Below, in pieces: positions 16,268 through 34,081 of a stretch of DNA of 51,183 nucleotides. Each line of letters begins with the position of its first letter. Position 1 is the first letter of the stretch. Location of the stretch: assembly GCA_026398235.1 (NCBI GenBank), contig JAPLTE010000039.1, positions 1 to 51,183 of the forward strand, in the 5' to 3' direction. The notes beneath the pieces are model-generated. The model ran no database searches, was not told where the DNA came from, and was given only the letters and a program-made list of their open reading frames with translations. Source of the DNA: Verrucomicrobiota bacterium (GTDB lineage Bacteria; Verrucomicrobiota; Verrucomicrobiia; Chthoniobacterales; Chthoniobacteraceae). The position numbers were made by a program, and so were the translations under genes.

Positions 16268-16295
16268 TGGGGGCGCAAACCGGGACGCAATGTCC

Positions 16296-16440
16296 CAAGC
16301 GCGTCGGTGCGGGAATGCCGTGAAAATCGGCCACAGTGTCGCTGCTGTAACCGGATACGAAACCTCAAGGCCACTCGAAAAATCGGGGAAGGCGAGGCGG
16401 TAGGATCGAAGCCGGGAGTCAGAAGACCGAACGACGTGCT
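16296..16440 (+). ncRNA. Cobalamin (adenosylcobalamin) riboswitch
   Basis: The leader shows the conserved elements of the cobalamin aptamer in order: GGTGCGGGAATGCCGTGAAA, then a GCCACAGTGTC segment, GCTGCTGTAA, GGCCACTC, GGGGAAGGCG, and the B12-box region GCCGGGAGTCAGAAGACC. It directly precedes the cobalamin gene cluster and should lower its expression when coenzyme B12 is abundant. A GGGAC/GTCCC hairpin lies just 5' of the aptamer (about 16282-16295). No clear intrinsic terminator follows, so control of translation is more likely than attenuation. The boundaries are approximate. Confidence 0.9.
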
Positions 16441-16473
16441 TTGAGTAACCTTCGAAACAAAGGAAAATCCCAC

Positions 16474-17121: not shown

Positions 17122-17129
17122 CAATCTCC

Positions 17130-18191: not shown

Positions 18192-18193
18192 GA

Positions 18194-18934
18194 ATGAAGC
18201 GCCTCATCGCCGCCCTCCAGTTTCTCACCGTTTGCCCTTTCGTCTCGCATATTCAGTGTGACGAGCGGGACATCGGGCGCAGCACGCCGTGGTTTCCGCT
18301 GGTGGGACTTCTCATTGGGGGGGCGGTGGCGCTGTTGGATCGCGGCATGAGCGGGCTTTTTCCGCCTTTGCTCTCCAGCGCGCTTGCGGTGGTGGCGCTT
18401 CTTGCCGCCTCCGGCGGTCTGCACATGGATGGCCTTGCAGATACTGCCGACGGATTTCTGAGTTCCCGTCCGCGCGAACGGGTTTTGGAAATCATGCGCG
18501 ACAGCCACACCGGGGCGATGGGGGTAATCGGGATTGTGTGCGTGTTCAGCCTCAAGGTTGCCGCGCTCGCTTCCACACCACCCGCGCTGCGTGCGCCGAC
18601 GCTTTTGCTCATGCCCTTTGCGGGACGGTGTTCGATGGTGATGCAACTGGCTCTGTTGCCTTACGCGCGCTCCGGTGGGCTCTGCTCATTGTTTGTGCAA
18701 AACGGACGTCGCTCGGATGTGGTCTTTACATCTCTGCTCTTTGCCGCTGTTAGTTGGCTGGTTGGCGGCCTTTTTGGGCTCACCGCAGCGGGAATTTCGG
18801 TCGCGGGAATCGCGATTTTTTCTCTCTGGTGCCGGAATAAAATTGGCGGGTTTACGGGCGACACGCTGGGAGCGGGCTGCGAGTGGGTGGAACTGATTCC
18901 CGCGTTGGTGGCGGCTGCCTGGGTCTTAAAATAG
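18194..18934 (+). CDS. cobS: Adenosylcobinamide-GDP ribazoletransferase (cobalamin synthase)
   Basis: CobS joins adenosylcobinamide-GDP with alpha-ribazole or its phosphate at the membrane. The 246-residue protein has about six hydrophobic segments and the metal-binding signature GGLHMDGLADTADG near residues 74-87. It also has RDSHTGAMGV and the late GGFTGDTLGA. It starts two bases after cobT and ends eight bases before the cobD/cobQ fusion. Product release from the usual CobS substrate needs a phosphatase that was not identified as a separate gene here. Confidence 0.95.
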   Translation: MKRLIAALQFLTVCPFVSHIQCDERDIGRSTPWFPLVGLLIGGAVALLDRGMSGLFPPLLSSALAVVALLAASGGLHMDGLADTADGFLSSRPRERVLEIMRDSHTGAMGVIGIVCVFSLKVAALASTPPALRAPTLLLMPFAGRCSMVMQLALLPYARSGGLCSLFVQNGRRSDVVFTSLLFAAVSWLVGGLFGLTAAGISVAGIAIFSLWCRNKIGGFTGDTLGAGCEWVELIPALVAAAWVLK

Positions 18935-18942
18935 AGTAAACG

Positions 18943-21504
18943 ATGATGTCCCAAACCCACGGCGGAAATCTCAGAGAACTGGCGCTCTCGTCGGGAATAC
19001 CGGAGAGCGAACTGCTCGATTTTTCCGCGAACTTGAATCCGCTCGGGCCCCCCGAATGGCTGCGCCCCGTCATCGCAGCAAATGTCAGTGCGCTGGCCCA
19101 TTACCCGGACCCGGATTGCACCGCGCTTGTGGAAGCTGCGGCCCGGCGCTATGGCGTGGCAATGGAGGAGGTGATCGCAGGGAATGGCTCCGCCGAAATC
19201 CTTTCGTTGCTGCCCCGGGTTTTGGGCAAGCCGCGCGCGTTGGTTCCCGTGCCCGCCTATGTGGATTACGCCCGCTCGGCGGCGCTGGGCGGGATGAAGG
19301 TGAAATCGCTCCCGTTCAAGGAGGAGAACGGGTTTCAACTGGATTTCCCCGCGCTCGAAATGGCGCTGCGCGGCGATGAGGCGGTTTTTATCGGGCGGCC
19401 CAACAACCCAACGGGTCATGTCTGTGATGCGGGGGCGCTGCGGGCACTCGCGTTGCGGAATCCCGCGACTTTGTTCGTTGTGGACGAAGCGTTTGGCGAT
19501 TTTGTGGACGGTTTTGAGAGCCTCACGCGCGAGCGTCCAGCGAATATCATCGTGCTGCTTTCGTTGACCAAGGCGTTTGCGATTCCAGGCTTGCGTTTGG
19601 GGTGCGCAGTGGCGAATGCGGAGCTCGCCGCCCGAATGCGCGCATTGCTCCCGCCATGGTCGGTCAATACGCTGGCCCAAGCCGTGGGGGTGGCCGCTTT
19701 GCAGGATACGGAGTACTTGTGCCGCACGCGGGCGTTTGTGCGGGAACAACGGGAAACGCTTGCGGCGGAATTGGGCTCGTTGCCAGGGCTGCATGTCTAT
19801 CCCGCAGAAGCGGATTTCCTGCTGGTGCGCACTGCGACGGATGCGTCCGCATTGGCCAGGCGCATGTTGCGGGAAGGGATCGCGATCCGCCTCTGCACAA
19901 ATTTCGAAGGACTTGGCACCCGCTTTTTTCGCGTAGCGGTACGCACAGCACAAGAGAATGCGCGGCTTTGCAAGGCGCTGCGGAGCGCGCTGGGTTTCCC
20001 CGCAATTGCCGCCCCCAAGTGCCGCGCCGCGAGCATCATGTTCCAGGGGACCAGCTCCAATGCCGGGAAAAGCGTCCTCACTGCCGCGCTCTGCCGCATT
20101 CTGCAACAGGACGGGCTCAGTGTCGCTCCTTTCAAGTCACAGAACATGTCGCTCAATTCATGTGTGACGCGGGACGGCCTGGAGATGGGGCGCGCACAAG
20201 TCATGCAGGCACAGGCGTGCCGGATCGAACCTGAGGCTCGGATGAACCCGATCCTGCTCAAGCCCAATTCGGACACCGGCTCGCAAGTCATCCTGCTCGG
20301 GAAACCTGTGGGCAACATGAATGTGGGCGAATACATCCGGTTCAAGCCGCAGGCGTTTGAGGCAGCCAAGCAGGCGTTCGATTCGCTTGCCGCCGAGCAT
20401 GACGTGGTGGTTTTGGAAGGGGCAGGCAGCCCGGCGGAGGTCAATTTAAAACACCACGATATCGTCAACATGCCCATGGCCCGCCATGCCAACGCGCCCG
20501 TTCTGCTCGTGGGGGACATTGATCGCGGCGGGGTATACGCCTCGTTTGTCGGGTCGATGGAAGTGCTCAATGAATGGGAACGCGCTCTGGTCGCGGGCTT
20601 TGTGGTGAACCGGTTCCGCGGGCAGGAGGCGCTTTTGCAGGACGCGCACGACTACGTCCATCGCCACACCCGGTTGCCTGTGCTCGGTGTCATCCCCTAT
20701 TTGCCGAACCTCGGTTTGCCAGAGGAAGATTCCGTCACCTTCAAAGCTGCAAGGTCGCAGAGCGCGAGCGGTGGAGCAGAGCAGGTGGACATTGCGCTTC
20801 TGGATTTGCCCCATTTATCGAATTTCACCGACTTCGATGCCCTGCGGATCGAGCCGGATGTCGTGGTGCGCATTGTGCGTTCACGGGAGGAATTGGGAAG
20901 CCCGGATGCGGTGATTCTGCCGGGAAGCAAGCACGTGGCGGCCGACCTCGCCCACCTGCGCCAAAGCGGCCTGGCGGCTGCCGTGATCGAACTCGCGCGC
21001 CGGGGGAAGACGGAAATTGTGGGTATTTGCGGTGGTTATCAAATGCTCGGCCAGCGGATCGAAGACCCGCAGCGGATCGAATCCGAAGGAACGCCGGTGG
21101 AAGGATTGGGTTTGCTCCCGCTTTCCACCGTGATGGAGCCTGAGAAGACGCTCAAGCGCGTTATGGGCCGCCATGCGGAATCTGGATTTGCGCTCCACGG
21201 TTATGAAATCCACCACGGCCAGAGCGCTTGCGATGCATCGTTGACCCCGCTCGTTTTGCGCGAGGACGGCGAGGTGATCGGCGTCGGCTGCGGCCTTGCC
21301 TGGGGGAGTTATCTCCATGGCATTTTCGATGCCGACCCGTTCCGTCGCTGGTTTATTGACCGATTGCGCATCCGGAGAGGGCTCGCGCCGGTGGGGCGCG
21401 TGGTGGCTGTATATGATTTGCAGGAAGCCTTCGACCGGCTTGCCGCCGTGGTGCGCGCAAGCCTGGACATGAAACAAATCTACCGTCTGCTGAAATTGGG
21501 ATGA
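18943..21504 (+). CDS. cobQ: Threonine-phosphate decarboxylase (CobD) fused to cobyric acid synthase (CobQ/CbiP)
   Basis: This 853-residue protein joins two cobalamin enzymes. Residues 1 to about 355 are a PLP-dependent aminotransferase-fold protein like Salmonella CobD, with [25 protein letters not shown] and PLP lysine K210 in [14 protein letters not shown]. It should make aminopropanol phosphate from threonine phosphate. Residues from about 364 are CobQ/CbiP, with the ATP-binding [17 protein letters not shown] and the glutamine amidotransferase motif [10 protein letters not shown]. It amidates the corrin ring. The linker is only about ten residues. It overlaps cbiB by four bases. Histidinol-phosphate aminotransferase is excluded by the context. 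Confidence 0.94.
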
Positions 21505-22451
21505 GAGTGGAATATCAAGTTTTAGTTGCGTTTGGCGTAGATATGCTTTGCGGAGATCCGCGCTGGCTTCCGCATCCAGTGAAGTGCATCGGGCGGTTCG
21601 CGGCAGCGCTCGAAGCGCCTTTGCGCCGGGCGATCCCGAATGCCCGCGCGGCGGGAATAGGCGCGGTGTTCATCGTGCTTTCTGTCACGGGATTTGGGGC
21701 GCTTGCTCTCGTCACGGCTGCGGCGCGGTTGCACCCCATGGCCGGGGATGTTGTGTCGATTGCCCTGCTTTACACCTGCTTCGCGGGGCGCGATTTGGCA
21801 CGGCACAGTTCACGGGTTTTTCACGCTTTGGCTGACGGCGATCTGCCGGAGGCGCGCCGCCGGGTGGCGATGCTTGTGGGGCGCGACACGGAGCATCTTG
21901 ATGAGCCGGAGGTGGTGCGCGGGACGGTTGAGAGCGTGGCGGAGAACATGGTGGACGGGGTGACGGCACCGATCTTTTTTGCGGTGCTCGGTGGACCCGT
22001 GGGGGCGTTGCTTTACAAGGCGGTGAACACGCTCGATTCGACCTTTGGTTACAAGAATGAACGGTATTTGCAATTCGGCTGGGCTTCCGCGCGACTCGAT
22101 GATGCGGTGAACTATTTCCCGGCTCGATTCACCGCGCCGCTGGTGGCATGCACGGCGGCGCTGCTGGGATTGCGTCCGCTGCTCGCGTGGCGGATTTTTC
22201 GCCGTGACGGGCGCAAACATCCCAGTCCCAACTCCGGCCTCACTGAGGCCGCCGTCGCGGGCGCGCTGGGGGTGCGGTTGGGCGGCCTGAATACGTATTT
22301 CGGGGTGCCTTCCGAGCGGCCCTGCATGGGCGATCCGCTAAATCCGTTACAGCGCAAACACATTTTCCAAACCAACCGATTGATGCTGCTCACTTCCGCG
22401 CTGGCCTTGCTGATTTTCGTGGGCATTCGTTGGGTGATTTTTCCATCATGA
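21501..22451 (+). CDS. cbiB: Adenosylcobinamide-phosphate synthase
   Basis: CbiB attaches the aminopropanol (phosphate) arm to adenosylcobyric acid at the membrane. The 316-residue protein has several membrane segments and the family signatures [14 protein letters not shown] near the N-terminus, [31 protein letters not shown] and [16 protein letters not shown] overlaps connect it to the cobD/cobQ fusion upstream and cobO downstream. Placement next to the CobD domain, which makes its substrate, fits the pathway. Confidence 0.96.
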
Positions 22452-22969
22452 AACCGCGCACATTGATTTTTACAGGCGAGGGAAAGGGGAAGACGACCGC
22501 AGCCTTTGGCATGGTGTTGCGAGCGGCGGGGCACGGGCAGCGCGTAATGGTCGTGCAGTTCCTCAAATCCAACAGCGACAGTGGCGAGTTGCTGGGATGC
22601 GCTCATCTGCCCAATGTGGAACTGGTCCAGATCGGGCGCGGTTTTGTTCCGTCCCAGGCGCACCCCGCCTTCGCCAACCACCGGGAAACGGCAGGCGAGG
22701 CATTGGCGTTTTCGCGGGAGTGCCTCGCATCCAATCGATACGATCTAATCGTTCTCGATGAGATTTGCGGTGCCGTTGCCCTGGAATTGATTGAGTTGGA
22801 AGAGGTGATCGCGCTGATCACTGCTCCAGGGCGGACGGCGTGCCTCGTTTTGACAGGGCGTCACGCCAGCGAGCGTTTGATGGCGCAGGCCGACACCGTG
22901 ACCGAGATGCGCTGTATCCGGCATGGATACAGCGAAGGCATTGCCGCGCAGAAAGGAGTGGAGTTTTGA
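22448..22969 (+). CDS. cobO: Corrinoid adenosyltransferase (CobA/CobO type)
   Basis: This enzyme transfers the adenosyl group of ATP to cob(I)yrinate or cobalamin. The ATG at 22448 overlaps the cbiB stop by four bases and gives 173 residues. A TTG at 22430 would add six. Its P-loop is TGEGKGKTTAAFG near residues 9-21, and the later LIVLDEICGA and LVLTGRHASE segments are family hallmarks. It does not resemble the PduO or EutT types. Confidence 0.95.
   Translation: MKPRTLIFTGEGKGKTTAAFGMVLRAAGHGQRVMVVQFLKSNSDSGELLGCAHLPNVELVQIGRGFVPSQAHPAFANHRETAGEALAFSRECLASNRYDLIVLDEICGAVALELIELEEVIALITAPGRTACLVLTGRHASERLMAQADTVTEMRCIRHGYSEGIAAQKGVEF
22952..22958 (+). promoter_or_regulatory. Shine-Dalgarno site that fixes the cbiA TTG start
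   Basis: AAAGGAG lies seven bases upstream of the TTG at 22966, inside the end of cobO. No ATG or GTG in the cbiA frame is near the conserved N-terminus, so this site supports initiation at TTG. Confidence 0.75.
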
Positions 22970-24342
22970 ATATTCCACGGCTTGTGATCGCGGGAACCCA
23001 GAGCGGAGTGGGCAAGACTTCGGTCACGCTCGGGCTCGTTGCCGCGCTCAAGCGGCGGGGATTGCGCGTGCAGACATTTAAAGTGGGGCCGGATTATCTC
23101 GACCCGACTTATCTGGCACTTGCTTCGGGTCGGCCCTGCTACAATCTCGACGGCTGGATGACCGATAAAGAGTATGTTTGCGAACTGTTTGCGCGTGTTT
23201 CCGCAGATGCCGATCTGGCGATCATCGAAGGAGTAATGGGGCTCTTTGACGGGGCCGATCCCGCAGCGTTGTCGGGGAGCACGGCGGAGATCGCCTGCTG
23301 GCTGGAGGCCCCGGTTCTCCTCATTGCAAACGCCCACGGCGCAGGCCGCAGCTTTGCCGCAACGGTGCATGGTTTCGCGACCTTCATTCCGGAGATTCGC
23401 CTCGCGGGGGTCATCGCCAACCGCTGCGGTTCCGAGCGGCACGCGGAGGGACTTGCCGCTTCGCTCTCAAGCGCGGCGCTGCCTGCCTTTCTGGGGGCGG
23501 TCCAGCGCGGGGCGCTGCCGGAATTGCCAAGCCGCCACCTCGGCCTTGTGAGCGCCGATGCAAAACAGTTTTCGCAGGCGATTCTGGACCAGCTTGCCGA
23601 TGCAGTGGAAGTCGCGCTGGATGGCATTCTGGACCAGGCCCGCAAAGCCCTTCCCATTCAAGCGAAACCCACGCGAGGCATGTCCCCCAATATTTCCCCA
23701 GCCACGGTGCGATTGGGCATTGCGCAGGATGAGGCATTCCATTTTTACTATGCAGACAACCTGGATGCGCTAAGAAAGGCGGGGTGCGAACTGGTCCCGT
23801 TTTCTCCAGTGCGCGACGGCGCGCTGCCCCCGGATCTCCATGGCATTTATATCGGCGGCGGTTATCCCGAGGAGCATGCAGAGGCGCTTGCCGCCAATAC
23901 AGGGATGCTGGATGCGATTCGAGAGTTCGTTGCGACGGGGCACATCGTTTATGCCGAGTGCGGCGGGTTGATGTATCTCTCGCAGGGCATCGAGACACTC
24001 GACAACGCGCGCCATCGCATGCTGGGTTTGCTTCCCGCGTGGACGCGCATGTGTCCGCGCCGCCAATCCCTCGGGTACATGGAGGCCGAATTCACGCGCG
24101 ACTGTTTCTGGGGCGAGAAGGGCGAGCGTTTGCGCGGGCACGAGTTTCATTATTCCGAGTTGACCCATGTTCCCGAAGAGTGTCCCAAGGCCTACGCTTT
24201 GCACTACCGCCGTTCGGATCGCCCCCTGGCGGAAGGGTTTCAATGCGGTTCCGTCTTGGCCAGCTATGCCCATCTTCATTTCGCGGCGAAACCCGGTGCC
24301 GTGGTTCATTTTGTGAATTGTTTGAAAACCTGCATCCCATGA
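22966..24342 (+). CDS. cbiA: Cobyrinate a,c-diamide synthase
   Basis: CbiA amidates cobyrinate at the a and c side chains using glutamine and ATP. The TTG at 22966 overlaps the cobO stop (TTGA) and gives 458 residues. The N-terminal part has AGTQSGVGKTSVTLGL and KVGPDYLDPTY, and the C-terminal glutaminase part has YAECGGLMYLSQ with the nucleophilic cysteine, then RGHEFHYSE. A longer frame from 22840 would extend into cobO. It is linked to cbiC by a four-base overlap. Confidence 0.95.
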   Translation: MNIPRLVIAGTQSGVGKTSVTLGLVAALKRRGLRVQTFKVGPDYLDPTYLALASGRPCYNLDGWMTDKEYVCELFARVSADADLAIIEGVMGLFDGADPAALSGSTAEIACWLEAPVLLIANAHGAGRSFAATVHGFATFIPEIRLAGVIANRCGSERHAEGLAASLSSAALPAFLGAVQRGALPELPSRHLGLVSADAKQFSQAILDQLADAVEVALDGILDQARKALPIQAKPTRGMSPNISPATVRLGIAQDEAFHFYYADNLDALRKAGCELVPFSPVRDGALPPDLHGIYIGGGYPEEHAEALAANTGMLDAIREFVATGHIVYAECGGLMYLSQGIETLDNARHRMLGLLPAWTRMCPRRQSLGYMEAEFTRDCFWGEKGERLRGHEFHYSELTHVPEECPKAYALHYRRSDRPLAEGFQCGSVLASYAHLHFAAKPGAVVHFVNCLKTCIP

Positions 24343-25028
24343 CAAAACCTCCGTTCATTTATCAACTGCTTAACCGCCGCATGAGCGGACCCGAGATTGA
24401 AACCCGCTCGTTTGAGATCATCGATGGCGAAGCGCCCGACCGACTCGGGTTTTCGCGGGATGAATGGGAAATCGTGCGCCGATTGATCCACACCACGGGC
24501 GACATGGCGCTTGCTGCATCCGTGCGCTTCTCGCCGGATGCCATTGAGTCCGGCATCGCGGCGTTGCGCCGGGGCGCGCCGATTTATGCCGACTCAAACA
24601 TGATCCGCAGCGGCCTTTCGCTGGAGCGGCTGCGCAGTGCTCATGCCGGTTATGCAGTAGACCGGATTGCCTGTTACGTTGCCGACAATGAGGTGGCGCA
24701 AAAAGCCACAAAGGAAGGTCTGCCGCGCTCGCTGTATGCCATCCAAAAGGCGAAGCCGCAGCTCGATGGGGGGATTGTGATTTTTGGCAACGCCCCTGTG
24801 GCGTTACTGGAACTCAACCGGATGATCCTCGAGGAGGGGATTCGTCCCGCGCTGGTGATCGGCATGCCGGTCGGTTTCGTGCATGTGGTCGAGAGCAAGG
24901 AGGAACTGGCCGCGCTCGGGGTTCCGTTCATCGGCATCGAAGGGCGTCGCGGCGGCAGCACCCTGGCGGTTGCAACACTCCACGCGGTTTGCACGCTTGC
25001 CCGACAGGCCGAGAAAGGAGTTTCTTAA
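24339..25028 (+). CDS. cbiC: Precorrin-8X / cobalt-precorrin-8 methylmutase
   Basis: CbiC moves a methyl group from C11 to C12, producing (cobalt-)hydrogenobyrinate or cobyrinate. From the ATG at 24339 the protein has 229 residues. H51 in IHTTGDMALA matches the catalytic histidine of the family, and FGNAPVALLEL, IGMPVGFVHVVESKEEL and IGIEGRRGGST are typical. It overlaps cbiA by four bases and the cbiM start by one base (TAATG). Confidence 0.96.
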   Translation: MTKPPFIYQLLNRRMSGPEIETRSFEIIDGEAPDRLGFSRDEWEIVRRLIHTTGDMALAASVRFSPDAIESGIAALRRGAPIYADSNMIRSGLSLERLRSAHAGYAVDRIACYVADNEVAQKATKEGLPRSLYAIQKAKPQLDGGIVIFGNAPVALLELNRMILEEGIRPALVIGMPVGFVHVVESKEELAALGVPFIGIEGRRGGSTLAVATLHAVCTLARQAEKGVS

Positions 25029-25801
25029 TGGCTAAAGGGCGAACGGATTTCCTTTTGCTTTTGACGCTTGCGCTTGCTTTGCCCTCCACGGGCCAGGCGA
25101 TGCACATTTCGGAGGGGATTCTGCCCCCGAAGTGGGCGGCGCTCTGGTATGCGATTGCCATCTTCTTTGTGGCGTGGGGATTGCGGGACCTGCGCGTGAA
25201 AAGTGCGCGTGAGCCTTTTTTCAAGCCGATGGTCGGGTTGATCGGTGCGGCCGTTTTTGTCATTTCCTGCATGCCCATTCCCGTGCCGATCGCCGGAACC
25301 TGCTCGCATCCGTGCGGTACCGGAATGGCGGCCATCCTGATCGGCCCGACGCTGTCGGTGGTCGTGAGCAGCGTGGCGCTCTTGTTGCAAGCGCTGTTTC
25401 TGGCGCACGGCGGCTTGACGACGCTCGGCGGCAATATCGTCTCGATGGGCATTGCGGGAGCTTTTACCGGATGGGCTGTTTTCCGGTTGAGCCGCCGCGC
25501 GGGACTGTCGCCCTGGGCCGCTGCCTTTCTGTGCGGGATGTTTTCCGACTGGGCCACGTATGCGGCGACTTCTTTTGAACTGGCCAGCGCGCTGCACGGC
25601 AACAGCTCGTTCCTGCACATGTTCGCCGCTATTGGCGCCTCGTTTCTGCCCACGCAACTGCCCCTTGGCATTTTTGAAGGAGTCGTCACGGCCGGGGTCT
25701 ATCGTTTTATTGCAGTTCGCAGGCCTTCGTTGCTCGAGTGTCTGGGCGTGGAGGCCCGGCGTTGCCCGCTGGTTCCTCAAAAAACGGGGGGTGCAAAATG
25801 A
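25028..25801 (+). CDS. cbiM: Cobalt ECF transporter S component
   Basis: CbiM is the membrane substrate-binding unit of the CbiMNQO cobalt importer. The 257-residue protein begins with a signal-like segment (MAKGRTDFLLLLTLALAL...GQA). Cleavage after it would expose the Met-His of MHISEGILPPKW, the N-terminal metal site of the family. Several hydrophobic helices follow, along with CSHPCGTGM-type and HGGLTTLGGNIVSMG motifs. The context shows cobalt rather than nickel. A Shine-Dalgarno AAAGGAG precedes the ATG. Confidence 0.94.
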   Translation: MAKGRTDFLLLLTLALALPSTGQAMHISEGILPPKWAALWYAIAIFFVAWGLRDLRVKSAREPFFKPMVGLIGAAVFVISCMPIPVPIAGTCSHPCGTGMAAILIGPTLSVVVSSVALLLQALFLAHGGLTTLGGNIVSMGIAGAFTGWAVFRLSRRAGLSPWAAAFLCGMFSDWATYAATSFELASALHGNSSFLHMFAAIGASFLPTQLPLGIFEGVVTAGVYRFIAVRRPSLLECLGVEARRCPLVPQKTGGAK

Positions 25802-26070
25802 AAAAAGTGATGGTCCTTTCAGCTCTTGTGCTTTTATGCGCCGCGGGGTTGACGTTCCTGCTCTCGCGCCAGTCGGGGAACTGGGCCGGGGTGGATGAGG
25901 TCGTGGTCGAAAAAATAGCGAAGCAAGCCGGTCGCCCCGCGCGCAAACCGTACATCAACACCGATCAAGGCGATCTGCTCCTTTTCTTTTTTCTGATCGC
26001 CGGAACAGCGGGAGGTTTTGTGGGCGGCTATTGCTTTCGCGAGCTTTTTCCGCCAGAAAAGAAGCCCTAA
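25798..26070 (+). CDS. cbiN: CbiN-like component of the cobalt importer
   Basis: The 90-residue protein has two membrane helices (about 5-24 and 58-83) separated by a short periplasmic loop that contains GVDEVVVEKIA, similar to the CbiN loop. CbiN assists metal capture by CbiM. The ATGA overlap with cbiM and the position before cbiQ support the call more than sequence similarity does, because CbiN is short and divergent. Confidence 0.75.
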   Translation: MKKVMVLSALVLLCAAGLTFLLSRQSGNWAGVDEVVVEKIAKQAGRPARKPYINTDQGDLLLFFFLIAGTAGGFVGGYCFRELFPPEKKP

Positions 26071-26074
26071 AGCC

Positions 26075-26860
26075 ATGAGTTTGTTATCGGAAATCTTTTC
26101 GGACCTCTTTGCGCGGCAGGATCATATCCTGACGCGGATGGACCCGCGCACGAAGTTGATCATTGCGTTGGGGGCGCTGTGTGCCGTGATTTTTTCCAGA
26201 ACAGCGGCGTTTCCGCTGGCGGTGCTTGTGCTTTGCCTCGCGGCGACCCTGGCTGTGGGAGTTCCCAAACGGCTCCTGGGATTACGCCTGGCCGCACCGC
26301 TGGGGATTGCGCTGGTTTTGTTGGTATTGCAGTCCGTGATGGCGGGAACAACCCCGCTGTGGAGTTTTGTTGCCCTTGGCGCAAAGGTCACCGTCACTCG
26401 TGAGGGGTTGTTGGTCGGATTACTGCTCGCCTCCCGGGTGCTGGCTGGCGTGAGCGTGATGTTGCTGCTCAGTGCCGTAACCCCGGCACACCGCATTTTC
26501 CATGCAATGCGCATGCTCGGCGCACCACAAGGCTGGGTGGAAATTGCGATGTTAATGTATCGCTACATTTTCGTATTACTAGACCTCACCGCGGAGGTGG
26601 TCGCTGCACAGAAAGTGCGGTTGGGCTACGCAGGGATGCGGCGCGGTTTGTCTTCCGCTGGACAGCTTGGGGGGACGGTGATTTTGCGCGCGATGGACCA
26701 GGCCGTTTCCACCAACCAGGCAATGCGGGTGCGGGGTTACACCGGGAGCATTCCGCTCGGCCCGCTGCCTGCCTTCGCCGCGCGCGAAGGTTGGATTCTT
26801 GGAGCGGTCGGGGTTGCTTTAGCCGGTCTCTTTTTCGCGACGGAAGCGCTCTGCAAATGA
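26075..26860 (+). CDS. cbiQ: Cobalt ECF transporter T component
   Basis: CbiQ is the transmembrane coupling protein between CbiM/N and the ATPase CbiO. The 261-residue protein has an N-terminal DPRTKLI segment, several membrane helices, and the cytoplasmic coupling motifs (AMRMLGAPQGW and RAMDQAVSTNQAMRVRGY). The start is the ATG at 26075, five bases after cbiN. A longer frame from 26018 runs into cbiN. It overlaps cbiO by four bases. Confidence 0.94.
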   Translation: MSLLSEIFSDLFARQDHILTRMDPRTKLIIALGALCAVIFSRTAAFPLAVLVLCLAATLAVGVPKRLLGLRLAAPLGIALVLLVLQSVMAGTTPLWSFVALGAKVTVTREGLLVGLLLASRVLAGVSVMLLLSAVTPAHRIFHAMRMLGAPQGWVEIAMLMYRYIFVLLDLTAEVVAAQKVRLGYAGMRRGLSSAGQLGGTVILRAMDQAVSTNQAMRVRGYTGSIPLGPLPAFAAREGWILGAVGVALAGLFFATEALCK

Positions 26861-27732
26861 ATCCGTTCGCTCTTGAAACCGAGGCGATTTCTTTCGCTTA
26901 CCCAGACGGGTTTGTGGCGTTGCGAGAAATCGTCTTCCGGGTCAAACGTGGCGAATTTGTGGCGATGCTCGCTTCCAACGGTTCGGGTAAAACCACGTTG
27001 ATCAAAGTGCTCGCCGGTCTGCTAGTGCCTCAAAGCGGTTCCGTAAAGGTCGATGGGCGGGCCATCGGCGAGTATTCGCAAGCGGGGCTGTACCAACGTT
27101 TGGGCCTGGTATTTCAAAATCCCAATGACCAGCTTTTTGGCGCGACCGTAGCCGAGGACGTGGCGTTCGGGCCGCGCAATCTCGGGTTGCCGGAAGCGGA
27201 AGTGCAATGCCGTGTGGCCGAGGCGCTCTCGGCGGTGGGAGCCGGGGAGTTGCAGGACCGGGCGATCCATCACTTGAGTTTCGGCCAGCAGAAACGGGTG
27301 GCCATCGCCGGGGTGCTGGCCATGAAACCGGCGATCTTGATCCTTGATGAACCGACCGCCGGGCTCGATCCCGCTGGGGAACACAGCATGTTGCGCCTGC
27401 TCAGCTCGTTGAATCGGGAGCAGGGGATCACGATTGTTCTGGCAACGCATTCGGTGGATACGCTGCCGCTGTTTGCCGACCGGATTTACCTGCTCAACCG
27501 GGGTCGGGTGCTTAAGGAGGGGCCTTCGGAGGAGGTATTTCGGGATCACGAGTTGATCGAGAGCGCGAGCTTGCGGTTGCCCTATGTGTCGCGTCTTTTG
27601 CATGAATTAAAACGGTTTCACGGCGTGCCCATCGAAGGGCTGCCCCTGACGCTTGGCGAGGCGCGCGAGCAACTTTTAAAGCTGATTCCCGATGAAGTCA
27701 TCCTGCCGGTGATCGAGGAGGGGCGGCTATGA
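26857..27732 (+). CDS. cbiO: Cobalt ECF transporter ATPase
   Basis: CbiO hydrolyses ATP to drive cobalt uptake. The 291-residue ABC protein has a Walker A of ASNGSGKTT, Q-loop VFQNPNDQLF, signature LSFGQQKRVAIAG, Walker B ILILDEPTAGLD and the switch histidine in ATHSVD. The first residue of Walker A is alanine in place of the usual glycine, which may be tolerated. The unusual LSFGQ signature is typical of CbiO. About 60 residues follow the core as a C-terminal extension. It overlaps cbiD by four bases. Confidence 0.95.
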   Translation: MNPFALETEAISFAYPDGFVALREIVFRVKRGEFVAMLASNGSGKTTLIKVLAGLLVPQSGSVKVDGRAIGEYSQAGLYQRLGLVFQNPNDQLFGATVAEDVAFGPRNLGLPEAEVQCRVAEALSAVGAGELQDRAIHHLSFGQQKRVAIAGVLAMKPAILILDEPTAGLDPAGEHSMLRLLSSLNREQGITIVLATHSVDTLPLFADRIYLLNRGRVLKEGPSEEVFRDHELIESASLRLPYVSRLLHELKRFHGVPIEGLPLTLGEAREQLLKLIPDEVILPVIEEGRL

Positions 27733-28781
27733 TTTTGCGCACGGGCTACACCACCGGCGCTTGTGCTGCGGCTGCGGCAAAAGCTGCGACGACTTTGCTC
27801 TGTGGCAAGCTTGCGCCTGAGGCGGTGGAAATCCCTCTTCCGGATGGCAGTCGCGTCCGGTTTCCCGTGGTCGCATGCGGTCTGGAGGGAGAAACGGCGC
27901 AGGCCTCCGTTTGCAAAGACGCGGGCGACGACCCGGATATCACGCACCAGTCCACCATTGTAGCGAGCGTCACTTTTACCGAAGGCGACGACGTGCAGTT
28001 CGCGGCGGGGGACGGGGTGGGGACGGTCACCAAACCGGGACTCTCCCTTGCGCCCGGCGAACCGGCCATCAACCCGGCTCCGCGCGGGATGATCCGGCAG
28101 GCGGTTCGCGAGGTGACGGCGCGTGGCGTGCGGGTCACTGTATCGATCCCCGGCGGGTGCGAGCTTGCGGCGCGCACCTTCAACCCGCGCCTGGGCATCC
28201 AAGGCGGGCTCTCGGTCATCGGAACGAGCGGCATTGTTAAACCGTTCAGCGCGCCCGCGCTCACAGCTTCGCTTGCGTGCGCGCTTGATGTCGCGACGGC
28301 TTCCGGTGTGCGCGCGCCCGTTCTGGTGCCTGGAAATATTGGCGAGCGGGCAGCGCTTAAAAATTTCCCCCTGGATGCCGGGCAGATCATTCAGGTGAGC
28401 AACCACTGGGGCTTCATGCTCGACCGTGCTTCGGAGATGCCCTTTGAACGGCTGCTTGTTTTGGGGCACCCGGGCAAATTGGCTAAACTCATTGACGGCG
28501 AGTGGGACACGCATTCCTCCCATTCCGCGAGCGCGGTGGGGGTGGTCACGCGTCTGGCTGAAAAGATGTGGGGAGGGCCTGTATCCGAAAGCGCAACAGT
28601 CGAGGGAATTTTCGAGTGGTTGCCGCGGGAAATGTCCCTGCAACTTGGGAATGCGCTTGCCGCAGCGGTTCGAGAGGCGATCACTGTGCGGATCGGATCG
28701 GAGAAAGAAATCGCAATCACCTTGATTAACCTGGCCGGGGGGATCCTCGGCGCAGACGGAGATTTGTCGCCATGGAAATAA
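27729..28781 (+). CDS. cbiD: Cobalt-precorrin-5B C1-methyltransferase
   Basis: CbiD methylates C1 of the ring in the anaerobic pathway, using S-adenosylmethionine but not belonging to the canonical methyltransferase family. The 350-residue protein opens with LRTGYTTGACAAAAAKAA, the family hallmark, and contains KPGLSLAPGEPAINPAPR and VPGNIGERAAL. Its presence marks the cobalt-early route. It overlaps cbiO by four bases and cbiE by ten. Confidence 0.95.
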   Translation: MILRTGYTTGACAAAAAKAATTLLCGKLAPEAVEIPLPDGSRVRFPVVACGLEGETAQASVCKDAGDDPDITHQSTIVASVTFTEGDDVQFAAGDGVGTVTKPGLSLAPGEPAINPAPRGMIRQAVREVTARGVRVTVSIPGGCELAARTFNPRLGIQGGLSVIGTSGIVKPFSAPALTASLACALDVATASGVRAPVLVPGNIGERAALKNFPLDAGQIIQVSNHWGFMLDRASEMPFERLLVLGHPGKLAKLIDGEWDTHSSHSASAVGVVTRLAEKMWGGPVSESATVEGIFEWLPREMSLQLGNALAAAVREAITVRIGSEKEIAITLINLAGGILGADGDLSPWK

Positions 28782-29401
28782 AACCGATCACCATTGTCGG
28801 CTGCGGCCCGGGTGCGCTGGAGTATGTGACTCCGGCGGCTTTGCGCGCAATCCACGAAGCGGAAGTGCTCGTGGGCGCGCGCCGCCTCTTGGAAAGTTTT
28901 CCAGAGGTTGCCGCCCTGCGCATCCTCGTCGGCGCAGACGTGCCGCAAGCACTCGCTGCAATGACTGAACACCTCGGCCAGCGCAGAATCGTTGTGCTGG
29001 TGACGGGCGATCCCGGTTTGTGCAGCCTGGCCCGCCCGGTCATCCAGCACTTTGGGAGGGATGCGTGCCGTGTCATCCCCGGAATCAGTTCGGTTCATGC
29101 GGCTTTTGCGAGCGTGGGGATCGACTGGTTTGGGGCGCGGATCCTCTCCGCGCACGATCAGCCTCCAGACCTCGCTCCCGCCTCGCTGGCGTTTGAAAAT
29201 AAACTCGCCCTTCTGGCGGGAAACCCCGCGCATTCTGCCTGGGTGGCGGCGCTGGCGGCAGCACTGGTCGCAACACATGATCTCTTTGTATGTGAAAACC
29301 TGACGCTGGCCGACGAATCCGTCCGCCGGGTCGATTGCCTGCCCGTGAACCTTGCATCCCGAACGGTCCTGCTCTTTATCAAAAAAGAAATATCCCTATG
29401 A
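28772..29401 (+). CDS. cbiE: Cobalt-precorrin-7 C5-methyltransferase
   Basis: CbiE methylates C5 and belongs to the tetrapyrrole methylase family. It has 209 residues with ITIVGCGPGALEYVTPAA (SAM-binding loop), VLVTGDPGLCSLA and VIPGISSVHAAFA. It is CbiE alone, with no CbiT domain at the C-terminus (it ends VNLASRTVLLFIKKEISL). In many genomes CbiE and CbiT are adjacent or fused, and here the next gene is cbiL. The start at 28772 overlaps cbiD by ten bases. Confidence 0.92.
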   Translation: MEIKPITIVGCGPGALEYVTPAALRAIHEAEVLVGARRLLESFPEVAALRILVGADVPQALAAMTEHLGQRRIVVLVTGDPGLCSLARPVIQHFGRDACRVIPGISSVHAAFASVGIDWFGARILSAHDQPPDLAPASLAFENKLALLAGNPAHSAWVAALAAALVATHDLFVCENLTLADESVRRVDCLPVNLASRTVLLFIKKEISL

Positions 29402-30123
29402 GTCTTGGAAAATTTTATGGCATGGGGGTCGGCCCCGGTGATCCCGAGTTATTGACGGTGAAAGCCGCTACCATTCTGGGGCGCTGCCCGCACGTGGTCG
29501 TTCCCAAAGCAAAGGCCGAGGGCGGCAGCGTGGCGCTGGAAATCGCGGGCCGTTATGTGCACAAAGAGGCCACCATCCACGAACTGGTTTTCCCGATGAC
29601 CATGGACAAGGCGGCACTGTCCCGAAGCTGGAAGGAATCGGCGCGAACCATCGCCTCCCTTTTGGAAACAGGCGCGGACGTTTGCTTTTTGACGCTGGGC
29701 GATGCCTTGGTTTATTCGACCTACATTTATTTGCTGCGCGAATTAAAGGCCATTGCGCCGGAGCTGGAGGTCGTCACTGTCCCGGGCATCACTTCGTTTT
29801 CCGCCGTGGCGGCGCTGACGGGATTTCCCCTCGGCGAAGGAAAGGAGCCGATCACGATTGTGCCGACGGCGGATGATCTCACGGCGGTGCGGCGCGCGGT
29901 GGAAACCGGGGGGACCGTCGTGTTGATGAAGATCGGCAAGCGGCTCGGGGAGATTCTCGATCTCCTGGAAGAAACCGGCGTCATTGATGACGCGGTGTTT
30001 GTCCAACGGGCCGGGCAGCCGACCGAGCGCGTCGAACTCGACTTGCGCAAGCTGCGCGGCGAAGATGCGCAAGCGGGATACCTCTCAGTTATTTTGGTTC
30101 ACACAAACAGGAGAACATTATGA
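29398..30123 (+). CDS. cbiL: Cobalt-factor II / precorrin-2 C20-methyltransferase
   Basis: CbiL (CobI in the aerobic pathway) methylates C20. It has 241 residues from the ATG at 29398, with the SAM-binding GMGVGPGDPELLTVKA, FLTLGDALVYSTYIYLL and VPGITSFSAVAALTGFPL. The latter two segments are characteristic of C20-methyltransferases. It overlaps cbiE and cbiF by four bases each. Confidence 0.94.
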   Translation: MSLGKFYGMGVGPGDPELLTVKAATILGRCPHVVVPKAKAEGGSVALEIAGRYVHKEATIHELVFPMTMDKAALSRSWKESARTIASLLETGADVCFLTLGDALVYSTYIYLLRELKAIAPELEVVTVPGITSFSAVAALTGFPLGEGKEPITIVPTADDLTAVRRAVETGGTVVLMKIGKRLGEILDLLEETGVIDDAVFVQRAGQPTERVELDLRKLRGEDAQAGYLSVILVHTNRRTL

Positions 30124-30878
30124 AAGTGATTTTTGTGGGGGCGGGTCCCGGCGACCCGGAGTTGTTGACATTGAAGGCCGCGCGGCTGCTGCAAAACTGC
30201 CAGTGCTGTGTTTACGCCGGTTCACTGGTCAGCCCCGAGGTGGTGGCGCTGGTGCCGGCGAGCGCCGAGAAATACGATTCCGCCGCGATGACGCTCGAGG
30301 AAACCACGGCGGTCTGCCGCAAAGGACAGGAGCGCGGCATGGATGTAATCCGTTTGCACACGGGCGATCCGTCGATCTATGGGGCCATCCGCGAGCAAAT
30401 GATCGAGTTGGACAAACTGGGTATTGAGTATGAGGTCGTGCCGGGGGTTAGCTCATTCCAGGCCGCCGCGGCCGCATTGAAAACGGAGTTGACCGCGCCG
30501 GAAGTTTCCCAAGCCATCGTGCTTACGCGCACTTCCGGACGCACGCCGATGCCCGCCGGCCAGGAACTTGAGCGGATGGCACAAACGAGCGCTACCCTCT
30601 GCATTTTTCTTTCCGTGCAGAATATCGCGGCGGTGGCGCAAACCCTCGCCGCCCATTATGGGGAGGATTGCCCGATCGCAGTGGTTTATCGCGCCTCGTG
30701 GCCGGATCAAATCATCCTCCAAGGCACGCTGGCGGGCATTGCCGTGAGTGTCGCGATGGCGGGCATCGGCAAGACCGCGATGATCATTGTAGGCCGCGCG
30801 CTGGAACGCCACGGGGCCGTTTCGAGGCTCTACAGCGGCGAATTTTCGCACGGGTATCGAAAAGCGAACGCGGAATGA
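30120..30878 (+). CDS. cbiF: Cobalt-precorrin-4 C11-methyltransferase
   Basis: CbiF (CobM) methylates C11. The 252-residue protein shows VIFVGAGPGDPELLTLKA, CVYAGSLVSPEVV, RLHTGDPSIYGAIREQM, VPGVSSFQAAAAAL and the AIVLTRTSGRTPMP segment, the last of which separates CbiF from the other ring methyltransferases. It overlaps cbiL upstream and cbiG downstream by four bases. Confidence 0.95.
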   Translation: MKVIFVGAGPGDPELLTLKAARLLQNCQCCVYAGSLVSPEVVALVPASAEKYDSAAMTLEETTAVCRKGQERGMDVIRLHTGDPSIYGAIREQMIELDKLGIEYEVVPGVSSFQAAAAALKTELTAPEVSQAIVLTRTSGRTPMPAGQELERMAQTSATLCIFLSVQNIAAVAQTLAAHYGEDCPIAVVYRASWPDQIILQGTLAGIAVSVAMAGIGKTAMIIVGRALERHGAVSRLYSGEFSHGYRKANAE

Positions 30879-31651
30879 ACACTGCGATTATAACCCTCTG
30901 CGACCAGGGCGCGCGCGTGGCCCGGCGGCTGGTGGAAAAGCTCGGTGGGGACTGCCACGTTTATGTGCATGAGATCGTGCAGGAACCCATCGACGCCGAA
31001 CGGTTTGGCGCAGTCGTAAAACTCACGGCGCAAATTTTCAGAAAGTATAAAAGGCTCGTCTACATCGCCCCATGCGGTGTGGTGGTCAGGGCCATTGCGC
31101 CATTGATCCAGCACAAGCTGACCGACCCGGCGGTGGTCGTGGTCGATGTCGGAGCCCGCCATGCCGTGAGCCTTTTGAGCGGGCACGAGGGCGGAGCCAA
31201 CCTTCTTGCGCTGGAAGTGTCCAACGCGCTCGGAGCCGAGCCGGTCATTTCCACCACGACCGAGGCCGCCAAGACGCTCATTGTCGGAATCGGCTGCCGA
31301 CGGGGCGCAAAGGCGGAAAGCATCTCCGGGGCGATTTGCGCGGCACTCGATAAAGTGGGCGCGACGCTTGAAGAGGTGCGCTTTTTGGCTTCCGCGGAAC
31401 TGAAATCCGACGAGGTCGGACTCTTGCAGGCTGCGCGGGAACTCGGGCTGAACCTGCGGTTCATTGCCGCCAGCGAAATTCTTTCAACAACCAAAACCTT
31501 CCGCCACTCGCAATTTGTGGCGGACAAAATCAAACTGCCTGCCGTTGCCGAACCCTCGGCGCTGTTGGCGGGAAGGAGGACCCAATTAATACTACCCAAG
31601 AACATCATCAACGGGGTGACAGTGGCCATTGCCCGGGAAAACTTTTTGTAG
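30875..31651 (+). CDS. cbiG: Cobalt-precorrin-5A hydrolase, compact form
   Basis: CbiG opens the delta-lactone and releases acetaldehyde in the anaerobic pathway. This copy has 258 residues, while many CbiG proteins have about 330-360. The CbiG_N region (about 45-127, with APCGVVVRAIAPLIQ and SLLSGHEGGANLLA) passes directly into the CbiG_C region (134-255, with VGIGCRRGAKAES and a GVTVAIAR end), so the middle domain is absent. The ATG at 30875 overlaps cbiF by four bases. The end overlaps the proposed cbiH start by 67 bases. Confidence 0.92.
   Translation: MNTAIITLCDQGARVARRLVEKLGGDCHVYVHEIVQEPIDAERFGAVVKLTAQIFRKYKRLVYIAPCGVVVRAIAPLIQHKLTDPAVVVVDVGARHAVSLLSGHEGGANLLALEVSNALGAEPVISTTTEAAKTLIVGIGCRRGAKAESISGAICAALDKVGATLEEVRFLASAELKSDEVGLLQAARELGLNLRFIAASEILSTTKTFRHSQFVADKIKLPAVAEPSALLAGRRTQLILPKNIINGVTVAIARENFL
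31573..31579 (+). promoter_or_regulatory. Shine-Dalgarno site for a non-canonical cbiH start
   Basis: AAGGAGG is followed after five bases by ATT (31585-31587) in the cbiH frame. It is a full match to the anti-Shine-Dalgarno core, inside cbiG. No ATG, GTG or TTG in that frame precedes the SAM-binding motif of CbiH. Confidence 0.6.
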
Positions 31652-32364
31652 TCGGCATCGGGCCCGGCAGCGTGCTCGACCGGACGCACCGCGCCGAGGA
31701 GGCTATTCGCGCAAGCAGCGTGGTGGTCGGCTATAAGCATTACCTCAACCACATCGCCGACCTGACCGAAGGCAAGGAATTGCTCTCCTCCGGGATGCGC
31801 CAGGAAGTGGACCGCTGCCGGGTCGCGCTGGATCGTGCCCTGCAAGGGGCAACCGTCGCGTTCATTTCCTCCGGGGATGCAGGGGTTTACGGCATGGCGG
31901 GGCTGGCCATCGAAATGGCGGCGGCGCATGGGATGGACCTCCCTATCGAAATCGTGCCGGGGGTTTCCGCTGCAAATTCCGCCGCGGCACGGTTCGGCGC
32001 GCCGCTCATGCTCGACTATGCGTGCGTGAGCCTCAGCGATTTATTAATGCCGTGGGAAACCATCCGGCGGCGCGTCGAAGCGCTGGCGAGCGCGGATATG
32101 GTGGTGGCCCTCTACAACCCCAAGAGCACCAAGAGGATCACCCAAATCGAGGAAGTCGCTGCGATCTTTCGCAAGCACCGGCCTTGCCACACGCCGGTCG
32201 GCATTGCCACAGCGGTGGGGGCGGAGGACGAACAGTTGGTGCTTTCGGATTTGGAGCGTTTTTTTGGCGAGGAGATCACGATGAAGAGCATCGTGATTAT
32301 CGGCAACAGCTCCTCGAAAATTCTGGATGGCTGGTTTGTGACGCCGCGCGGCTATAAACTATGA
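31585..32364 (+). CDS. cbiH: Cobalt-factor III / precorrin-3B C17-methyltransferase, apparent AUU start
   Basis: CbiH (CobJ) methylates C17 and contracts the ring. The conserved N-terminal motif GKLFVVGIGPGS begins upstream of the first ordinary start codon, GTG at 31672, which would cut off this SAM-binding loop. The only well-placed candidate is ATT at 31585, giving 259 residues, with AAGGAGG five bases upstream. Other motifs are GYKHYLNHI, SSGDAGVYGMAGLAIEM, VPGVSAANSAAARFGAPL and VALYNPKS. An indel in the sequence, or a -1 shift at the end of cbiG, is the alternative. Confidence 0.82.
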   Translation: MNTTQEHHQRGDSGHCPGKLFVVGIGPGSVLDRTHRAEEAIRASSVVVGYKHYLNHIADLTEGKELLSSGMRQEVDRCRVALDRALQGATVAFISSGDAGVYGMAGLAIEMAAAHGMDLPIEIVPGVSAANSAAARFGAPLMLDYACVSLSDLLMPWETIRRRVEALASADMVVALYNPKSTKRITQIEEVAAIFRKHRPCHTPVGIATAVGAEDEQLVLSDLERFFGEEITMKSIVIIGNSSSKILDGWFVTPRGYKL

Positions 32365-33719
32365 TCCTGCTCCTCGGTGGAACCAGTGAGACTGCGCCTG
32401 TCGCCGAGGCATTGGCCCGGGCCGGGTACCGGGTGCTGGTTTCGACCGCCACCGAGATCGAGCTTTTTGTCGGTACCCACCCGCGCATCGAACACCGGCG
32501 CGGACGCTTAAATGCGGAGCAGATGGCCGGGCTTGTTCAAGAGAGCGGCATCCGGGCGATTGTCAATGCGACGCATCCGTTCGCTTCGGCGGTGCGCGCC
32601 ACGGCCCGGCAAGTTGCGGAGCGCCTGCAAATCCCTTATTTGAGCTATGCGCGAGCTGGTTGTGTGGAGGAGGGGAGTGGCCTTTCCATCGCGGCAAACC
32701 ATCCAGAGGCGGCGCGATGGGCTTGTGAAACGGGGCGGCCGATTTTGCTCACGATTGGCTCGCGCAATGTGCTGCCGTATTCTGTAGAAGCCCGGCGCAT
32801 GGGGCTTCCCCTTGTGGCCCGCGTGCTGGACCATCCTGATTCCCTCCAGGCCTGCCGTGAGGCGCAGATCCCCGAGGATCGCGTGCTCATGGGGCGCGGG
32901 CCGTTTAGCGTTGAAGAAAACCGGAGTGTGATTCAAAAATATAAAATCGGCGTCCTGGTGACCAAAGACAGCGGGGATGCGGGCGGGGTTCCTGAAAAGC
33001 TCGAAGCCGCGCGTTTGGAGGGCTGCCGGGTCATCGTCGTCGGCAGGCCCGAGCTGGATGACGGCATCGGGAGCGTGCCAGACCTTGTGCGGGAGATGCA
33101 ATCGCGGGTTCCGATCCCTCCTTGCGGCATTCTGGCACTGGACCTCGAAAGTGTGCTCGTGCCGGAAATATGGGAAACAGTCGCGCGCATCGCGGGGGTG
33201 CCGGCGTTGGCGTTTACCACGCGGGACCTTCCCGATTACGCGGCACTGATGCACCAGCGCATCAGTTTATGCCGGGAGCACGGGTTAACCTTGATGCGGC
33301 TGCGCGAGATCGTGGCCGCGATGGAGCCGCTCCCCGGCGCGGTCGCATTTCTGGCCTGGGCGCAAAGTCGCGCGCGGGTGGCGATTGTATCGGATACTTT
33401 TTACGAACTCGCCGGGCCGTTATTGGAGAAACTCGGTTCGCCGTTGCTGCTCTGCAACGCATTGACGCTGGACAAGGACGGCTTTATTGCCGGATATACC
33501 TTGCGCGAGGGCGGAAAACCCGGAGCCATCACCGGTTTCCAGCGACTGGGGTTGAGGGTGGCGGCGGTGGGAGATTCGTTCAACGATCTCGCAATGCTGC
33601 AAGCCGCCGACGCGCCATTCCTTTTCCAACCCGCCCCGCGCGTGCTGGCGGCGGGCGTTGCATTCCCGCCGATTTGGACATGGGATGAACTTCAAGCTGC
33701 ACTCGATTCTCTTTTATGA
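32361..33719 (+). CDS. cbiJ: Cobalt-precorrin-6A reductase fused to a ThrH-like HAD domain
   Basis: Residues 1 to about 248 are CbiJ/CobK, the NADPH-dependent reductase of precorrin-6A, with LLLGGTSETAPVAEAL, VNATHPFASAVRATA, RVLMGRGPFSVEEN and VTKDSGDAGG. Residues about 255-452 are a HAD domain close to ThrH (phosphoserine phosphatase/homoserine phosphotransferase). Its motifs are LALDLESVLVPEIWE with D261 and E263, VSDTFYE with S344, K386, and GDSFND with D405 and D409. A phosphatase or phosphotransferase step in cobalamin assembly is an inference. It overlaps cbiH and cbiX by four bases. Confidence 0.92.
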   Translation: MILLLGGTSETAPVAEALARAGYRVLVSTATEIELFVGTHPRIEHRRGRLNAEQMAGLVQESGIRAIVNATHPFASAVRATARQVAERLQIPYLSYARAGCVEEGSGLSIAANHPEAARWACETGRPILLTIGSRNVLPYSVEARRMGLPLVARVLDHPDSLQACREAQIPEDRVLMGRGPFSVEENRSVIQKYKIGVLVTKDSGDAGGVPEKLEAARLEGCRVIVVGRPELDDGIGSVPDLVREMQSRVPIPPCGILALDLESVLVPEIWETVARIAGVPALAFTTRDLPDYAALMHQRISLCREHGLTLMRLREIVAAMEPLPGAVAFLAWAQSRARVAIVSDTFYELAGPLLEKLGSPLLLCNALTLDKDGFIAGYTLREGGKPGAITGFQRLGLRVAAVGDSFNDLAMLQAADAPFLFQPAPRVLAAGVAFPPIWTWDELQAALDSLL

Positions 33720-34081
33720 ACAACACCTGCATGATCCTCCTCGCTCACGGAAGCAAAAATCCGCAATGGGCCGCTCCATTCCGCAAACTTACCGCCGATC
33801 TCCGCGCCGATTTAGGGGACGAGGCCGTCTATCTTTGCTTCATGGAGAACACCGCTCCCAATTTGATGGAAGTTGCCCGCGAAATCATGCAAACCGGCGT
33901 GCGTAAATACCGCTTGCTGCCGATGTTCATGGCCAAGGGGGCCCATTTTTACGAAGACATTCCGGCGGAAATGGCGAAGGTCAAAGCCGCATTCCCGGAC
34001 ATGGAAGGGGAACTTTTGGAACCGATCGGGCTGAACCCGCTGTTTTTTGAGCTGATGGGGAAAGTGATCAAAAGCCTGTAA
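33716..34081 (+). CDS. cbiX: Small sirohydrochlorin cobaltochelatase
   Basis: The 121-residue protein is the short, homodimeric form of CbiX (CbiXS), which inserts cobalt into sirohydrochlorin at the start of the anaerobic route. Metal-site candidates are H11 in LLAHGS and H77 in KGAHFYEDIP. It overlaps the cbiJ fusion by four bases and is the last gene of the cobalamin set. A SirB-type ferrochelatase is possible by sequence, but the context favours cobalt. Confidence 0.92.
   Translation: MNNTCMILLAHGSKNPQWAAPFRKLTADLRADLGDEAVYLCFMENTAPNLMEVAREIMQTGVRKYRLLPMFMAKGAHFYEDIPAEMAKVKAAFPDMEGELLEPIGLNPLFFELMGKVIKSL

Follow-up and report, generated by a model that had tools for sequence, protein, structure and literature searches.

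A cbiJ::thrH fusion gene in a Verrucomicrobiota cobalamin cluster and its possible role in supplying threonine phosphate

The window, by which we mean the whole analysed stretch of 51,183 nucleotides, carries a cobalamin gene cluster at 16576..34081 (+), delimited by family searches and by the translations, with a cobalamin riboswitch on its 5' side at 16288..16449 (+, Rfam RF00174, 74.2 bits, gathering cut-off 31.5); all window features given below are also on the + strand. The genes follow one another in the order cobU, cobT, cobS, cobD::cobQ, cbiB, cobA, cbiA, cbiC, cbiM, cbiN, cbiQ, cbiO, cbiD, cbiE, cbiL, cbiF, cbiG, cbiH, cbiJ::thrH and cbiX, where the names cobU, cobD::cobQ, cbiB, cbiA, cbiC, cbiM, cbiD, cbiE, cbiL, cbiG, cbiH and cbiX come from family searches and cobT, cobS, cobA, cbiN, cbiQ, cbiO and cbiF were assigned by reading the translations. 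The cluster includes a fusion of CobD (threonine-phosphate decarboxylase) with CobQ (cobyric acid synthase) of 853 residues (18943..21504, TIGR01140 at residues 6-347 and NF001989 at 364-850) and, next to it, CbiB (21501..22451, PF03186), which couples aminopropanol phosphate to the corrinoid. CbiT, the precorrin-6B decarboxylating methyltransferase, was not recognised in the window cluster, though CbiE is present. Judging from the gene spacing, the cluster is probably read as a single transcript.

Near the end of this cluster lies the fusion gene cbiJ::thrH (32361..33719), one open reading frame of 452 aa from ATG to TGA with no internal stop, which shares 4 bases with cbiH upstream (31672..32364, TIGR01466 above cut-off) and 4 bases with the gene of a CbiX-type small chelatase downstream (33716..34081, PF01903). 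Residues 2-244 (32364..33092) form the CbiJ (cobalt-precorrin-6A reductase) domain, with matches to PF02571 (E 3.6e-62, 210.4 bits against a cut-off of 28.6) and to the precorrin-6A reductase model TIGR00715 (140.5 bits, above its cut-off of 129.85). A linker follows at residues 245-256 (33093..33128), whose length and sequence vary in the alignment of five fusions, and residues 257-450 (33129..33710) form a ThrH-type HAD domain, with a Pfam HAD match at residues 271-414 and a match to the ThrH model NF010109 over residues 257-450 (212.7 bits, above the cut-off of 133). Pfam recognised CbiJ and HAD domains only; PF00300 (the CobC-type histidine phosphatase) and PF00288 (GHMP kinase) were absent from the fusion protein, and PF00288 was also absent from the window contig. 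The protein shares a complete PF02571 domain with the known CbiJ/CobK enzymes, the (cobalt-)precorrin-6A reductases, and differs from them by its added C-terminal enzyme. The original prediction had placed CbiJ and a ThrH-like HAD on one chain, and this is what we found, with D261/E263, VSDTFYE at 343-349, the motif III lysine K386 (33516..33518) and GDSFND at 404-409 all present; the predicted D-x-E of motif I was confirmed, its full form here being DLES (D261-L-E263-S264, 33141..33152).

Among solved structures, the top match of the HAD half was chain 1rku (E 7e-49, runner-up 5e-7), whose database entry reads homoserine kinase and which we take to be P. aeruginosa ThrH; the match spans nearly the whole HAD domain, catalytic residues included. 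P. aeruginosa ThrH is a phosphoserine phosphatase and phosphoserine:homoserine phosphotransferase, and its original description is reportedly that of Singh in 2004. ThrH is a stand-alone protein of ~205 aa, whereas the present domain makes up the C-terminal half of a 450-455 aa protein in all five genomes that carry the fusion, and it further differs from the P. aeruginosa protein in having DLES instead of DLEG, in being joined to CbiJ and in lying in a cobalamin cluster. The ThrH profile scans (NF010109 and TIGR02137) covered four fused copies (the window's and those of genomes G425, G426 and G429, with G424 left out) and two stand-alone copies. Besides the window's copy, those of G425 (205.1), G426 (229.9) and G429 (167.9) also passed NF010109, and all four fell below the strict HSK-PSP cut-off of TIGR02137 at 223.4 (window 166.3, G425 161.5, G426 183.2, G429 125.7); the stand-alone ThrH L005 (268.5) and the phage one L186 (269.3) passed both models. 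The SerB model TIGR00338 gave the fusion protein 33.7 bits, below its cut-off of 144.15. An AlphaFold2 model, computed from a two-sequence input, had a mean pLDDT of 38.9 and was set aside.

The fusion was present in 5 of the 213 genomes of the window's order, namely the window genome (G000), G424, G425 and G426 of the same genus, and G429 of another family, with identities to the window fusion of 83% (G425), 71% (G424), 64% (G426) and 48% (G429). An assembly join as the source of the fusion, which the original prediction had named as what would overturn it, is ruled out by the four further genomes that carry the same fusion. Two loci came from a pattern-based scan that covered 84,980 species genomes and detects close relatives only, a full-length one (L032, CAIYQA010000282.1, 83% identical), taken as the G425 copy from the same match position, and a partial CbiJ-like one (L033). 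Ten more genomes of the order had a match over the CbiJ part alone, and stand-alone ThrH was not seen among the 213 genomes at E 1e-8, ThrH being detected there only as the fusion. Among 387 genomes of the phylum, where at most four candidates per genome were scored and second matches were possibly missed, ThrH without CbiJ was matched in 76, CbiJ in 2 and the fusion in the window's own genome only, so that a wide spread of the fusion in the phylum is not supported. The order of G362, the genome with the closest CbiJ, had the fusion in 0 of 17 genomes.

Two observations on the separate partners were made in the course of these searches. In six of the ten CbiJ-only genomes of the order, which were all those checked, CbiH is followed by CbiJ in one stop-free open frame (L144-L149, in G401, G446, G395, G455, G394 and G402), and within this order CbiJ has apparently been joined to two different partners. 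The viral contigs searched for further ThrH sequences gave one locus only, an ordinary stand-alone ThrH gene (L186:789-1388) on a contig whose structural genes look phage-like and, by eye, T4-like.

The gene order cbiH-fusion-cbiX is kept in G424, G425 and G426, and in G426 a cobalamin riboswitch stands ahead of the cluster as well; a riboswitch search of five stretches from other fusion genomes found none, and no stretch held a cluster head. In G429, the fusion gene is preceded by an unassigned ORF and by trpC-like and ruvB-like genes, not by cbiH, and cbiL-F-G-H are on a separate short contig. The cobD::cobQ frame is also a single one in G425 and G426, and in G362 cobD and cobQ are separate matches. 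An extra ORF of 469 residues, radical-SAM-like by eye, lies between cbiC and cbiM in G425 (L101:6232-7641) and was not seen in the window cluster. The cluster stretch of G362 contains cobD, cobQ, cbiB and a lone-domain cbiJ, whose product is 58% identical and whose gene lies between cbiH and cbiX, and no cobC, ThrH or fusion was recognised in it; a missing cobC or ThrH is therefore by itself no pointer to the fusion. Judging by this stretch, bacteria elsewhere apparently close the threonine-phosphate gap without such a HAD domain.

When comparing the HAD half with 77 stand-alone ThrH sequences, one of them from a phage contig and the other 76 from the phylum, we observed that D261, E263, E269, R300, D345, K386, D405, N408 and D409 were invariant in the 5 fused and all 77 stand-alone copies. 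Motif I, by contrast, is DLES in 5/5 fused copies and DLEG in 77/77 stand-alone ones, and the four residues S264, C304, A334 and G388 (the last two positions beyond K386) were present in every fused copy and in none of the stand-alone set. In the 1rku-search alignment, the motif I Ser of the fused clade occupies the position of the Ser in DxDS, the corresponding SerB motif, and in motif II Ser344 is replaced by Thr in the G429 fused copy. In a phylogeny of 32 domains, 27 of them stand-alone, the five fused ones formed one clade with support of 99/97, in which G429 is on a long branch that draws a warning from the tree program. Pairwise dN/dS over five genome pairs, G429 left out, ranged over 0.173-0.214 in CbiJ and 0.180-0.217 in the HAD half, four of the five pairs having a dS close to 1 or higher. 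By its sequence, the HAD half thus has an intact active site and is under purifying selection as strong as that on CbiJ, and we infer from these comparisons that it is an active enzyme which has kept its chemistry while the neighbouring residues shifted. Moreover, its pocket looks phospho-amino-acid-like, because E269 and R300, which by PSP structures we take to be the binders of the substrate amino and carboxyl groups, are unchanged.

ThrH as a general B12 gene was not supported, since its association with CbiB was negative in the 386 phylum genomes besides the window's, where CbiB occurred in 7 of 76 ThrH genomes and in 71 of 310 others (odds ratio 0.34, Fisher p 0.0066, kinship ignored). 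In the seven genomes with both stand-alone ThrH and CbiB, the two were on different contigs in six, and in the remaining one over 200 kb lay between them. In its distribution, ThrH in general hardly resembles a B12 enzyme, and the majority of genomes with CbiB manage without it. The fused form is placed differently. G423, of the same genus, had no CbiJ match, no fusion and no SerB match above 50 bits, and it had two TP-methylase genes against six each in G000, G424, G425 and G426 and four in G429; within the genus, therefore, the fusion tracks corrin synthesis and not the serine gap. In addition, a B12 role for the HAD half is suggested by the B12 riboswitch of the window and G426 and by the bases shared with cbiH and cbiX, and we consider it probable that this half acts in the B12 pathway.

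The genes for related phosphate steps were mapped in the same genomes, which are incomplete drafts (the window genome 95% and G424 92% complete). PduX is presumably a GHMP kinase (PF00288), and the PF00288 matches of the window genome were two, a galactokinase and IspE. Across the five fusion genomes, the 16 matches comprised 5 galactokinases, 5 IspE, 3 ThrB, 1 fucokinase and 2 unassigned proteins, and none was recognisable as PduX; the unassigned type, of 344 residues, occurs in G424 and G425 and also in G423, which has no cbiJ match. ThrB is encoded in G423, G424 (an incomplete copy, 134.5 against a cut-off of 168.25), G425 and G426; the PF00288 search did not find it in the window genome, where this may be an assembly gap since G423-G426 have it. 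The window genome had three PF00300 matches, none on the window contig: a CobC-like phosphatase of 198 residues on contig C54 (L092, TIGR03162 122 bits, below the cut-off of 162.9) and two short proteins, SixA-like by reading. The neighbours of the CobC-like gene on C54 were read as PIG-L-like, acetyltransferase-like and oxidoreductase-like, with no apparent cobalamin genes. G426 has two CobC-like phosphatases (L106, L107) and G429 one (L108), all below the TIGR03162 cut-off, G424 has one short partial PF00300 match and no longer histidine phosphatase, and the sole full-length match in G425 is a phosphoglycerate mutase. With CobC-like phosphatases in the window genome, G426 and G429, a missing CobC is no constant companion of the fusion. 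The original prediction had noted that the cluster lacks a recognisable phosphatase, and this holds for the CobC type, though the genome has a CobC-like one elsewhere; across the five fusion genomes, no GHMP kinase recognisable as PduX was found, and CobC-like phosphatases were found in three.

The serine genes of the order were surveyed as well. Among its 213 genomes, 195 had neither the fusion nor a SerB match above 50 bits, 13 had such a SerB match and 5 had the fusion, weaker matches of ~29-38 bits being left uncounted, and a search for TIGR01364-type SerC came back with 0 of 15 genomes (G000, G423-G426, G429 and nine more of the order). A class V aminotransferase on contig C84 was closer to families other than SerC, each below its cut-off. 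PF12710 had five matches in the window genome including the fusion, of which three best fit sugar- or glycolate-phosphatase families and the last one is part of a frame of 792 residues.

The CbiJ reaction itself involves no phosphate. In the pathway, phosphate is handled where threonine is turned into threonine phosphate, ahead of CobD, and where CobC takes off the last phosphate. CobD has a far wider distribution than the threonine kinases PduX and BluE, and in one archaeon a bifunctional CobD is another kind of threonine kinase. Passages of two papers name only PduX, of Salmonella-like bacteria, and BluE, of Rhodobacterales, as threonine kinases (PMC8123684, PMC7242693), a passage of a third has both making threonine phosphate for CobD (PMC6249242), and an excerpt of a fourth counts EC 2.7.1.177 among the pathway gaps of Haloferax (PMC8305020). 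The ThrH homologues CD0241 and PA1089 have been hypothesised to be phosphoserine:threonine phosphotransferases, homoserine being an isomer of threonine, in a passage of PMC10714395. As described there, they resemble the HAD half in being ThrH-type HAD proteins with this proposed activity in a dedicated pathway, and differ in belonging to flagellin type A glycan loci, where the activity is hypothetical (PMC10714395); our comparison with them is by description.

Read from its sequence, the fusion is a true two-enzyme protein from a cobalamin cluster, one half of which is a cobalt-precorrin-6A reductase. We propose, with a probability of about 0.4, that the other half is an active ThrH-type HAD enzyme re-dedicated to cobamide synthesis, which moves phosphate from phosphoserine to threonine for CobD. 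D261 would take the phosphate from O-phospho-L-serine and hand it to L-threonine, giving L-threonine O-3-phosphate, which CobD (here CobD::CobQ) would decarboxylate to the aminopropanol phosphate used by CbiB. More tentatively, the HAD half could be an ATP-independent L-threonine phosphate synthase, standing beside PduX and BluE for EC 2.7.1.177 and made one-to-one with a ring-building enzyme; PduX and BluE do the same job as proposed here but are ATP-dependent kinases of other families. The threonine-phosphate step is favoured over the CobC step because the HAD half keeps its presumed phospho-amino-acid pocket. Several observations count against threonine phosphate as the product: the supply of the donor phosphoserine is in doubt in an order with no TIGR01364 SerC in 15 genomes, the G429 fusion is apart from cbiH, and ThrH and CbiB are negatively associated. 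The original prediction that the HAD domain supplies a phosphate step fits on the threonine-phosphate side and less well on the alpha-ribazole or cobalamin phosphatase side; it is, as a whole, partly supported.

The main rival of the threonine-phosphate reading is a general phosphoserine phosphatase: the HAD half would be the cell's own enzyme for this reaction (and a homoserine phosphotransferase), parked by chance on CbiJ and without a B12 role. The SerB model detected no further SerB-like protein at E 1e-6 in any of the fusion genomes, the ThrB search of the window genome was empty, and G000, G424 and G425 are without the PspA/CobC-like phosphatase that G426 (L107) and G423 share at 83% identity, all of which speaks for it. 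However, the 195 genomes of the order without fusion or SerB, G423 included, seem to meet the same need otherwise, and ThrB is encoded in the fusion genomes G424, G425 and G426. Moreover, an amino-acid enzyme placed late in a B12-riboswitch cluster would presumably be turned down by B12, and all four scanned fused copies stay below the strict TIGR02137 cut-off. On balance, we regard this explanation as unlikely, if a serious competitor. The earlier suggestion that the HAD half replaces CobC, as the missing phosphatase of alpha-ribazole-5'-phosphate or adenosylcobalamin-5'-phosphate, agrees with the lack of a PF00300 match on the window contig and with the partial match of G424 and the mutase of G425, but it has to accommodate the CobC-like phosphatases of the window genome (L092), G426 (L106, L107) and G429 (L108) and the invariance of the presumed amino-acid-binding residues. 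HAD enzymes of this class have a small, closed cap suited to small substrates, which also argues against a CobC substitute, and we think it improbable.

A low probability also attaches to a clean-up phosphatase for phosphoserine or excess threonine phosphate, which would spare CobD the formation of ethanolamine phosphate and the cell a nor-cobamide. It draws on the same evidence from pocket, cluster, riboswitch and overlaps as the threonine-phosphate reading and, as a plain phosphatase, would need no new acceptor specificity, but nothing in this analysis points to phosphoserine as a substrate of this CobD, and a search of open-licence literature listed no paper that mentions phosphoserine. A HAD half without catalytic activity, or with a purely structural role, is very improbable: the changed residues, which could be taken in its favour, are beside the active site only, the catalytic motifs are kept in 5/5 copies (with Thr for Ser344 in G429), and dN/dS is ~0.2.

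Both halves of the protein belong to known families, and we found no description of a CbiJ-ThrH fusion in open-licence full texts, so that the combination and the diverged clade are apparently new. With a ThrH-type domain locked to CbiJ in a cluster that has a B12 riboswitch at its head, the fusion is a directly testable candidate for the threonine-phosphate gap. If the threonine-phosphate reading is true, an enzyme of serine and threonine metabolism would have been turned into an enzyme of a cofactor pathway.
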